DNA from: Bacillota bacterium | Lineage (GTDB): Bacteria > Bacillota_I > Bacilli_A > Erysipelotrichales > Erysipelotrichaceae | NCBI GenBank assembly: GCA_023249475.1 | Contig: JAHFCO010000012.1 | Location: 1 to 53,965, forward strand | Reading direction: 5' to 3' | Length of the DNA stretch: 53,965 bases | Shown here: in pieces, positions 20,573-26,196 of the stretch | Layout: each line of letters opens with the position of its first letter | How positions within the stretch are numbered: position 1 is the stretch's first letter | Notes under the pieces: generated by a model | What the model saw: only the letters and a program-made list of their open reading frames with translations | The model's database searches: none | What the model was told of the DNA's origin: nothing | Translations under genes and position numbers: made by a program

Positions 20573-20601
20573 TTGAATTCTGACGCTACATTGCATATAA
20601 T
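20573..20601 (+). promoter_or_regulatory. Sigma-A-type promoter for the 48-residue ORF and ridA
   Basis: TTGAAT (20573-20578), a 17-base spacer, and a perfect TATAAT (20596-20601). The next start codon is 21 bases downstream. Confidence 0.8.
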
Positions 20602-20621: not shown

Positions 20622-20768
20622 ATGATCGAGAATATGAACGACCTGATTTCCCTGGCTTTGATGACGATCCTCTTCTTGGGCTTCGGGTATCTCAATCTGC
20701 GTAATTTTATCCATCACCGCCGTCGAAAAGTCATGGAAGAAGAGATCGAATATTATAAAGAGTGGTAA
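20622..20768 (+). CDS. 48-residue single-span membrane peptide
   Basis: A small gene with strong upstream signals: a near-consensus promoter and GAGGTG seven bases before ATG 20622. The product starts MIENMNDLISLALMTILFL, has one hydrophobic span followed by GFGYLNLRNF, then a basic HHRRRK patch and an acidic-aromatic end (EEEIEYYKEW). This predicts a single-pass protein with a short charged cytoplasmic tail. I do not recognise a family. ridA follows after 24 bases and may be co-transcribed. Confidence 0.7.
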   Translation: MIENMNDLISLALMTILFLGFGYLNLRNFIHHRRRKVMEEEIEYYKEW

Positions 20769-20792
20769 CTCTAGAAACATCGGAGGTAGAAC

Positions 20793-21371
20793 ATGTTCAC
20801 AAAATCCTTTAGCTCACCCAACGCCCCGAAGGCGCTCGGACCGTATTCCCCCGCATTGAAACTGGGCGATTTCGTCTATCTGTCGGGCCAATTGCCGATC
20901 GATCCGACGACCAACGAAATCACCGGTTCGGATATCCAGGAACAGACCTATCAAGTCCTGAAGAACATGGAAGCCGTCCTGGCCGAAATGAACCTTGAAA
21001 CCCGCCACATCGTCAAGACGACGGTGTTCATGACGGATTTGAGCGAATTCAGCGCGATGAACGAAATCTACGCGACGTATTTCGCCGACCCCTATCCGGC
21101 AAGATCGACCGTCCAGGTCTGTGCGTTGCCCAAGGGTGCGAAGATCGAAATCGAAGCGTTGGTCATCGACACCTTGGTCTATGAACAACAAGTGTCCAAC
21201 CAATCGGGTTGCGGATGCGGCGGATGTTCGGACGAAGGCTGTAGCGACGACAGTTGCGGATGCGGCGAAGAAGGCTGCGGCGAAGAAGGCTGCGCCGACG
21301 GATGCTGCAGCGGCGAAGAGAAGACGGAGACCCCCGACCAAGTTTGTGAAGACGGCTGCTGCTGCGGCTAG
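20793..21371 (+). CDS. ridA: RidA-family enamine/imine deaminase with cysteine-rich tail
   Basis: Residues 1-130 are a complete RidA/YjgF domain (SPNAPKALGPYSPALKLG, YLSGQLPIDP, the catalytic-site segment PARSTVQVCALPKGAKIEIEALV). RidA hydrolyses reactive 2-aminoacrylate made by PLP enzymes. Residues 140-192 add a tail with 14 cysteines, many as CxC, CC and CCC with Gly, Glu and Asp, and no aromatic residues, much like a metallothionein or metal-chelating tail. Ordinary RidA is about 125-130 residues. GGAGG precedes ATG. The tail is in frame with no stop, and the terminator stem overlaps its last codons. Confidence 0.93.
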   Translation: MFTKSFSSPNAPKALGPYSPALKLGDFVYLSGQLPIDPTTNEITGSDIQEQTYQVLKNMEAVLAEMNLETRHIVKTTVFMTDLSEFSAMNEIYATYFADPYPARSTVQVCALPKGAKIEIEALVIDTLVYEQQVSNQSGCGCGGCSDEGCSDDSCGCGEEGCGEEGCADGCCSGEEKTETPDQVCEDGCCCG

Positions 21372-21385
21372 CCGTCTTTTTTTTT
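21350..21385 (+). terminator. Terminator overlapping the ridA stop
   Basis: AGACGGCT (21350-21357) pairs with AGCCGTCT (21370-21377), followed by a long T-run. The 5' arm and loop are the last codons of the cysteine tail. Confidence 0.88.
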
Positions 21386-21413
21386 AGGAACCGCACGTTC
21401 ACTTCTAGGAAAA

Positions 21414-21451: not shown

Positions 21452-21907
21452 ATGAATCCAAACGAAGTGCTCTATCTCCGTCCCACATCGACCGGTACCT
21501 TGATGGTGACGGAGCAACAAACCCTGCATATCCAGGAAGCCGCGCAGGATTATCTTGCGGGCTGGTGCCTGGCGCTGGGCAGCAGCCTGCGCGGCAGCGC
21601 GGATGTCGTTCGACACCATCTCGACGTCAAGCAGAAGTTACCGGTCCTGGTGGACCCCACCGACCGGCTCCTGTTTTTCCCCACCTTGTCGAAAGAGCAT
21701 CCGGAATGCGTATGGATCAATTACGCGAAGATACGAAAACTGAAAGCGTTGACGACGGGGACCCTGGTGGTTTTCGGCCAGCGGGAACTTGAAGTCGACA
21801 TCGGCATCCGTTCGATACGGATGCAGGTGAAACGGTGCGAGAAACTGGTGAAAAGCATCGGTCAAACCCCGTATACGATGAAGAAAAAGAAGATCGGCGA
21901 AGAGTAG
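21452..21907 (+). CDS. comK: ComK-like competence transcription factor, short form
   Basis: A 151-residue protein that lines up with B. subtilis ComK along most of its length. Shared points are GSSLRGS (ComK GSSYAGR), LPVLVDPTDRLLFFPTLSKEHPECVWINY (ComK PIMVDPSNQIFLFPTLSSTRPQCGWIS), and a C-terminal TLVVF...QVKR segment. It lacks about 40 C-terminal residues of the 192-residue B. subtilis protein. ComK activates DNA-uptake genes; comEA and comEC lie at 49519-51890. GAGGTGACCCC precedes ATG. Whether it is functional is not shown by sequence. Confidence 0.8.
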   Translation: MNPNEVLYLRPTSTGTLMVTEQQTLHIQEAAQDYLAGWCLALGSSLRGSADVVRHHLDVKQKLPVLVDPTDRLLFFPTLSKEHPECVWINYAKIRKLKALTTGTLVVFGQRELEVDIGIRSIRMQVKRCEKLVKSIGQTPYTMKKKKIGEE

Positions 21908-24190: not shown

Positions 24191-24661
24191 ATGGATAACA
24201 ACCTTAAACAAAAGAGGATCTGCGACTTGATCGCCTCGATGGAGAGGATGCGCAGGGCGCAGAAGACGATGCGCAGCAAGCATAGCCACGAAGGTCCGAT
24301 CTTTCCCTTGATCGAATTCGCCAACGCCTGCGGGGACGAGTCGGTCCCCATCAGCAAACTGGCGGAAGTCTTCGGCGTCTCCGCCGCGGCCGCGACCCAG
24401 TTCATCACGAAGATGTCGATGCACGGCTATGTGGTCAGGGAAGAGAACCCGCAGGACCGCCGCCAGGTCATGGTCCGGATTTCCGACAAAGGGAAGGCAA
24501 CCGTGAAGGAAGCGCAGGCCGAGTTCATGGAAACGATGAGCGGTCTTTTGGATTACCTGGGCGAAGAAGACAGTCTTAAAATGAATGCGATCATCGAGAA
24601 GGTCGCGGAATATTTCAACCAAGGAAAGCAAGAACAACATGAAAAAGAAAACAAAGCGTAG
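24191..24661 (+). CDS. MarR-family regulator of the MacAB-type exporter
   Basis: A 156-residue winged-helix regulator (SKLAEVFGVSAAAATQFITKMSMHGYVVREENPQDRRQVMVRISDKG covers the recognition helix and the RRQVMV wing). AAAGGAGG precedes ATG 24191. Its last 23 bases overlap the exporter's first gene, so it probably represses its own operon through the palindromes at 24156-24176. The ligand that releases it is unknown. Confidence 0.88.
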   Translation: MDNNLKQKRICDLIASMERMRRAQKTMRSKHSHEGPIFPLIEFANACGDESVPISKLAEVFGVSAAAATQFITKMSMHGYVVREENPQDRRQVMVRISDKGKATVKEAQAEFMETMSGLLDYLGEEDSLKMNAIIEKVAEYFNQGKQEQHEKENKA

Positions 24662-25523
24662 AGTAATTTGGTTCGTCGTCATCGCGGTCATCATCAGCGC
24701 GGGCTTTTTACTCCTGAACAATTTCCGCAACACTTCGATGAAAAAACTCGTCGAAGAAAGCACGATCGTGACCGTGGAAAAGGGCGAACTGATCCTTTAC
24801 AGCGTCGCGAAAGGGAAGATCACTTCGGCGGATACGTCGGAAGTGAAGTTCGAAGGCAGTCTCAAAGACAATTACGTCAAGGTCGGGGACGTGGTCACGA
24901 AGGATTTCAAGCTCGGCCAATACAAGAACGCGATGCAACAGGTGTATAACCTGCGCGCCAAGATCGACGGCATCGTCATCCAGGTCGCCAACAACGCGAT
25001 GCCTTCCTATGTCGTCGCCAATCCGGATAAACTCCAGATGGAAGTCCAGATTTCCGAAAAGGACATCGCGAAGATCAGCGTCGGGCAAAAGTCAAAAGTG
25101 TTCATCGACGCCTTGAACCTGACCGTTGAAGGCACCGTCAGCAAGATCAGCCTGATCGGCAACACCTCCACCGATTTCACCACGTACACGGTCACCGTCG
25201 CCTTCGCCAAAGGAGACAACCCGATTTTCCTGGGGATGACCGGCAGCGCCAAGATCGAAACCTTGGTTAAGAAAGACATTTATCTGGTACCGGTCGAAGC
25301 CTTGATCCAAAGCGGGGGGAAAATCAACCTCCTCAGCGCGGAATGGTTCGACAACATGAACAAACCTGAGAAAGACTACTATCTTGAAGTCACCGTCGGT
25401 AGTGCGGACATCGACGTCGCGGAAGTGAGCGCCGAAGGGTTGGAAGGCTTTGAAGCCGTCATCCTGCCGGAATCGACGTCCTTCACCGGTTTCGGGGGTC
25501 TCCGCAATGCTGACGCTGAGTAA
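24639..25523 (+). CDS. Membrane-fusion (HlyD/MacA-like) protein of the exporter
   Basis: A 294-residue adaptor with a basic start, one N-terminal transmembrane helix (VIWFVVIAVIISAGFLLLNNF), then a short lipoyl-like/beta-barrel extracytoplasmic part (VTVEKGELILYSVAKGKI...; AKIDGIVIQVANN; MEVQISEKDIAKISVGQKSKVFIDAL). It is small for MacA and lacks a long coiled coil, as in Gram-positive YknX-type proteins. It overlaps marR by 23 bases and its end overlaps the ATPase gene. Confidence 0.85.
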   Translation: MKKKTKRRVIWFVVIAVIISAGFLLLNNFRNTSMKKLVEESTIVTVEKGELILYSVAKGKITSADTSEVKFEGSLKDNYVKVGDVVTKDFKLGQYKNAMQQVYNLRAKIDGIVIQVANNAMPSYVVANPDKLQMEVQISEKDIAKISVGQKSKVFIDALNLTVEGTVSKISLIGNTSTDFTTYTVTVAFAKGDNPIFLGMTGSAKIETLVKKDIYLVPVEALIQSGGKINLLSAEWFDNMNKPEKDYYLEVTVGSADIDVAEVSAEGLEGFEAVILPESTSFTGFGGLRNADAE

Positions 25524-26196
25524 CGTCACCAAGCACTACAAGATGGGTGATTCCGTCGTCCGTGCCTTGGACGGGATCAGCCTGACCATCGACGAAGGGG
25601 ATTTCACCGCCATCGTCGGTCCCTCGGGAAGCGGGAAGTCCACCCTAATGAACATCATCGGGTGTTTGGACATCGTCACCGACGGGGAATACGTCCTCAA
25701 CCAGATCCCCATCAAAAAATACGAAGAAGACGAACTGGCGGAAATCCGCAACAAGCAGATCGGGTTCGTTTTCCAGCAGTTCAACCTGTTGCCTTCCTTC
25801 AGCGCCTTGGAGAACGTCATGATGCCCATGACCTATGCCCGGGTCCCCAAGAAACAACGCGAGAAGATCGCCGCCGAAATCCTGACGAAAGTCGGATTGG
25901 GCGACCGGATGGACCACAAGCCCACCGAGTTGTCGGGCGGACAGCAGCAACGCGTTTCCATCGCCCGGGCCTTGGCGAACAACCCGGCGATCATCCTGGC
26001 CGACGAACCGACCGGGGCGCTGGACCAGAAGACCGGCAAGGAAGTGCTCGACCTTCTGACCCAGCTCAACAAGCAGGGGAAGACCGTCATCGTCATCACC
26101 CACGACGTCGGGGTCGCCGCCTATGCCTCGCGCATCCTGACGATCCGCGACGGCAAGATCGTCGACGATTCGCGCAAGGAGGCCGACCATGTTTAA
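25507..26196 (+). CDS. MacB/LolD-like ABC ATPase
   Basis: A 229-residue ATPase. Walker A is GPSGSGKST, the signature [15 protein letters not shown], Walker B is [13 protein letters not shown], and a Q-loop segment [20 protein letters not shown] and H-loop VITHD are present. This is the MacB/LolD-type energising subunit, here split from its permease. ATG 25507 overlaps the adaptor gene by 17 bases. It overlaps the permease by eight. Confidence 0.95.

Follow-up and report, generated by a model that had tools for sequence, protein, structure and literature searches.

The window, meaning the whole stretch of 53,965 nucleotides that was analysed, carries at 20793..21371 (+) a gene for RidA, a common detoxifying enzyme, here with 192 amino acids and a cysteine-rich C-terminal tail. 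The gene begins with ATG, is preceded by GGAGG at 20782-20786, and runs as a single open frame to a TAG stop codon. PF01042 matched residues 10-124 (20820..21164, +; E = 1.8e-40, 138.1 bits), while TIGR00004 matched residues 6-125 at 160.7 bits, well above its cut-off of 106.25, which places the protein within the curated RidA subfamily of the Rid (YjgF/YER057c/UK114) proteins. The window protein agreed with TIGR00004 in its domain, its motifs and its fold as predicted, but the cysteine tail is an addition outside the curated family. The active-site motifs GPY, SGQ, N, PARS and E were all intact, and the alignment placed Tyr17, Arg105 and Glu120 in the window protein; Arg105, together with Tyr17 and Glu120, provides the catalytic residues of RidA (PMC4433059). 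Since these residues are intact, the domain is very probably an active 2-aminoacrylate/imine deaminase. No second RidA was found in the genome that the window comes from. The AlphaFold2 model showed a confident RidA monomer fold for residues 1-126, with pLDDT >90 over most of the domain, followed by an extra C-terminal helix ahead of the tail (residues 128-137, TLVYEQQVSN; 21174..21203, +), whose DTLxYE-type motif was conserved among tailed proteins. Related solved structures included 1xrg and YabJ (1qd9), and no solved relative matched the window protein beyond residue 126.

The tail occupies residues 140-192 (21210..21368, +) and is predicted to be disordered throughout (pLDDT <50). Reading of the frame bore out the initial annotation that 14 cysteines are present here, in frame and without a stop codon; they are arranged in at least two modules, GCGCGGCSDEGC... 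and CEDGCCCG. Cysteine makes up 0.8% of the products of 12 neighbouring genes, and at that frequency at least 14 in 53 residues would arise by chance with a probability of 5e-18. The remaining residues had been described as exclusively small and acidic, but K, T, P, Q and V also occur (EEKTETPDQV). The description 'metallothionein-like' was correct as to composition, the cysteine fraction (14/53) and the CxC and CC grouping being similar to those of bacterial and eukaryotic metallothioneins, which likewise combine a high cysteine content with CxC motifs, but it did not extend to family membership. No Pfam or NCBIfam family, metallothionein models included, matched the tail over its cut-off, and the tail is part of a larger protein, not a small one standing by itself. 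A search of the window genome with the tail sequence found no other cysteine tail; the CCG-stop pattern occurred in one other place only, where there was no cysteine-rich ORF. No curated family includes a cysteine tail on RidA, and no paper describing one was found in the literature.

Upstream of ridA by 24 bp lies a gene for a conserved microprotein of 48 amino acids with a single transmembrane segment (MIENMNDLISLAL...EEEIEYYKEW; 20622..20768, +), and downstream lies a gene for a ComK-like protein (21452..21907, +; PF06338, E = 5e-20), which is a conserved neighbour of tailed ridA. A sigma-70-like promoter, TTGAAT-17-TATAAT, precedes the microprotein and ridA (20573..20601, +), identified by consensus match only, where one such pattern was found against 1.2 expected in shuffled sequences. 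An intrinsic terminator followed by a T run spans 21348..21386 (+; MFE = -19.9 kcal/mol, z = -4.0), and the last cysteine codons of ridA supply its 5' stem, an arrangement that recurred in genera g8 and g26. In the window lineage the CC(C)G codons at the end serve as terminator stem too, so the very end of the gene is doubly constrained, and its conservation there is not purely protein-driven; Holdemania and similar lineages keep the end cysteines without such a terminator. Elsewhere in the window, a MarR-type regulator was followed by what appear to be a membrane-fusion protein and a MacB-like ABC ATPase (24191-26196, +), probably a regulated efflux operon.

A search of 98 related genomes, followed by reading of the orthologous frames, showed that nearly all orthologues from the family of the window have a cysteine-rich tail at the same position. 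The named loci, taken from the best 80 matches, identified this family as the Erysipelotrichaceae, a family of mostly gut bacteria, and included Holdemania filiformis DSM 12042, Traorella, Candidatus Merdibacter and many Erysipelotrichaceae MAGs. The initial annotation had proposed conservation in relatives as a check on function, and this was confirmed: RidA orthologues from about 40 genera of the Erysipelotrichaceae had the tail, with between 2 and 22 cysteines. The orthologue of a congener was 96% identical and also had 14 tail cysteines. Short tails included CEDC, the smallest, CGGCKGC and CEGCCCD, while the largest, with 22 cysteines, belonged to locus L011, where a RidA of 264 amino acids (1501-2292) ends in repeated GCGCDGKGKHDGSGHGKHK-type blocks. 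Assembly error and repeat slippage were rejected as sources of the tail, because its presence in the congener and in so many other genera argues against both. In the sister family, in other families sampled from the class and in a sample of the phylum, RidA frames stopped at about residue 125. A match in Prevotella with an apparent extension was rejected, as the match ended before the tail, and no tail outside the Erysipelotrichaceae was found in the class and phylum samples (phylum limit E <= 1e-45) or among the best 80 named loci. In the samples searched, cysteine-tailed RidA is a form specific to the Erysipelotrichaceae. A mobile or viral origin was also rejected: no relative was found among viral contigs, and no plasmid record matched at least 80% of the query.

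The tail cysteines are under selection. Within genera, 87% of the compared tail cysteines were kept, while for the other residues of the tail the figure was 62%. Both values come from overlapping pairs and an alignment that favours cysteine matches, and because of the overlap the Fisher p-value for the difference should not be read at face value; 232 of 645 kept cysteine columns differed only by TGC/TGT. Several lineages (genera g8, g26 and g36, and locus L011) also possess histidine-rich tails, for example HHHHHDHEGCGCGGHHH in L216, HDHDHDHEHEC in L210 and HEHTHG in genus g8. Such variants bear the mark of metal ligands and not of thiols alone. Tails in genus g36 (L214-L216) carry histidine runs between GCGCGG units together with a CxCGKPMxxCxC motif, a combination that suggests a defined metal site.

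The position of the tailed proteins was examined with a tree built from the RidA domain alone, leaving out the tail, and the alignment was scored at landmark residues of E. coli RidA, using as a ruler what we take to be the E. coli sequence. Most proteins fell into one of three classes. Class A, which includes the window protein, is tailed and has GPY, SGQ, N, R and E intact. Class B, from 11 sampled genera, is tailed but has lost GPY (Tyr17); Asn88 is replaced, mostly by Leu, and Arg105 has become Cys, Met, Ala, Val or Ser. Class C is untailed with mostly intact active-site residues, and the landmark motifs were conserved in every untailed copy read except L171, L172 and the short, partial L180. 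A few divergent tailed proteins (L151, L160) fitted none of the classes well. Nearly all tailed proteins formed one branch (SH-aLRT 96), inside which class B was a single clade (99). The tailed proteins of genus g77 fell outside the main tailed clade, on poorly resolved branches, although they share the class A neighbourhood.

Class B proteins still matched PF01042 and superposed on solved RidA structures. Their tails contain only 2-5 cysteines, and the C-x3-C-x2-C-x2-C core of these tails also occurs in active forms (CSHNCDTCDGC beside CSGSCDGCSGC). As Arg105 is held to be necessary for deaminase activity (PMC4433059, PMC5619798), class B is predicted to be inactive. A separate, untailed and intact RidA of class C was present in 7 of 11 class B genomes and in 5 of 29 class A genomes (Fisher p = 0.008, phylogeny ignored). 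The essential arginine is likewise absent from the arginine-less Rid4-Rid7 groups (PMC4433059), but class B differs from these in also lacking Tyr17/GPY and Asn88 and in having a cysteine tail; because it branches from within the tailed clade, the loss looks independent of that in Rid4-Rid7. The members of class B (L182-L194) are active-site-lost proteins of RidA fold with short cysteine tails, which adjoin a convergent ComK-like gene, and they are a candidate new Rid subfamily.

Tailed RidA occurs in two gene orders, where neighbour names outside the window were read from sequence and profile-scanned in part. The class A order is RdgB, membrane protein, TrmL-like, membrane protein, microprotein, tailed RidA, ComK-like, YitT and MetK; the class B order is MiaB, RNase J, FtsK, tailed RidA, ComK-like (convergent), PlsY and ParE. 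Genes for metal transport or metalloregulation were not found next to the locus, where RdgB, a TrmL-like methylase, ComK, YitT and MetK are encoded. In about 35 loci read, from at least 20 genera and including g77, the microprotein gene immediately preceded tailed ridA of class A; it was absent beside class B loci. In relatives it has 46-61 amino acids, a single transmembrane segment and the consensus MIENxNDxLS...EYYxEW; no Pfam or NCBIfam family matched it over cut-offs, and it appears to be undescribed. In two genomes (G019 and G057), a weak microprotein match was seen beside ComK where tailed RidA was not found. A ComK match lay within 0.5 kb of tailed RidA in 29 of the 35 genomes that hold both, and the pairing occurred in both neighbourhoods and in both relative orientations. 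Within the family, tailed RidA and ComK tended to occur together (35/42 against 5/16; p = 3e-4, phylogeny ignored). Microprotein, tailed RidA and ComK-like gene constitute a conserved locus unit. Untailed RidA also had a ComK match beside it in three cases from the sister family, one of these matches falling below the Pfam cut-off, so the pairing may predate the tail or be independent of it. A literature search on Erysipelotrichaceae and ComK returned nothing relevant.

The initial annotation proposed that the tail binds metal, and this is the best-supported reading because lineages add histidine as well as cysteine; binding itself is what we infer from richness in both residues, from disorder and from the precedent of SlyD. 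The trimer, the identity of the metal and the physiological role are likewise inferred. SlyD has a variable, unstructured tail rich in His, Cys, Asp and Glu that binds Ni and Zn (PMC7055735). In SlyD as in tailed RidA, a variable and unstructured tail of Cys, His and acidic residues is joined to a housekeeping domain, but the peptidyl-prolyl isomerase domain of SlyD is unrelated, and metal binding was measured in SlyD whereas it is predicted for RidA. A weaker resemblance concerned FeoB_associated (PF12669), where one class B tail matched the cysteine-rich end (E = 0.0075) and one upstream microprotein matched the membrane part (E = 0.0053), at 16.9 and 17.4 bits against a Pfam gathering cut-off of 27; this likeness is split over two genes and may reflect composition only.

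The last 53 residues would then act as a flexible, thiol-rich ligand arm, which in relatives would be histidine-rich also. In the reducing cytosol of these bacteria, clustered CxC, CC and CCC thiolates would bind soft or borderline transition-metal ions such as Zn(II), Cu(I), Ni(II) or Fe(II). RidA proteins are trimers with a chorismate-mutase-like fold; if the window protein follows this pattern, one particle would present 3 x 14 cysteines. Like the tail of SlyD, the arm would most likely buffer, store or deliver metal. Since class B keeps a short cysteine tail after the catalytic residues have gone, the function of the tail would be at least partly separable from deamination, and its survival in that branch indicates that the tail probably has a job of its own. 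We give about an even chance to this reading of the tail as a metal-ligand (Zn/Cu/Ni/Fe-type) arm on trimeric RidA. Counting against it are the range of cysteine number, from 2 to 22, with room for no more than one ion per chain in tails as small as CEDC; the neighbourhood, in which no gene for metal transport or metalloregulation was found; the limits of the conservation statistics; the overlap of the last codons with the terminator stem; and the place of the g77 proteins outside the main clade.

A possible but unlikely alternative is that the cysteine cluster, through disulfides, persulfides or reaction with oxidants (chloramine, HOCl), protects or switches RidA, for instance between deaminase and holdase, or quenches 2-aminoacrylate by thiol addition. 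The dense vicinal and CxC/CxxC cysteines are in keeping with this, as are the reactive enamines and oxidants that RidA proteins encounter and the activation of E. coli RidA by oxidants. The suggestion that thiol oxidation alters RidA activity in some bacteria nevertheless found little support, since the oxidant-driven chaperone switch of E. coli RidA operates by N-chlorination and needs no cysteine (PMC4284807); for this reason the redox switch is a weaker proposal than metal binding. The single Cys107 of E. coli RidA can be oxidised by peroxynitrite (PMC4284807), and the alignment placed Thr at this position in the window protein. Thiol chemistry would also leave the histidine-rich variants unexplained, and proteins that have lost the deaminase residues still keep the tail.

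It is quite unlikely, though consistent with the recurrent microprotein upstream and with the close ComK pairing across two neighbourhoods and both orientations, that the tail instead brings RidA to one of these partners, any metal serving only to fold the joint. Adjacency alone is not interaction, the microprotein is missing beside class B, and ComK in the sister family adjoins RidA without a tail. Neutral drift has a slim chance at best: a single ancestral C-terminal extension would have been resized by GGCTGYGGNGAA repeat slippage, without function. The strong variation in length and repeat number (2-22 cysteines; the repeat blocks of L011) fits such a history, and overlap with the terminator could preserve the final codons. 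However, cysteines are kept far better than neighbouring residues and with synonymous codon changes, histidine is enriched in several lineages, and the tail is retained across about 40 genera and in members without an active site.

A bolder form of the metal-ligand reading is very doubtful: tailed RidA might be a trimeric scaffold that senses or stores metal, its fold being secondary, within an undescribed module with the microprotein and the ComK-like regulator, and class B a dead metal or thiol carrier. One bacterial family holds a natural series, from ordinary RidA, through an active site combined with a cysteine tail, to fold and tail without the active site. This series makes the possible recruitment of Rid proteins for metal or thiol handling directly testable, and such a test is practical because a cultured species, Holdemania filiformis, carries the tail.
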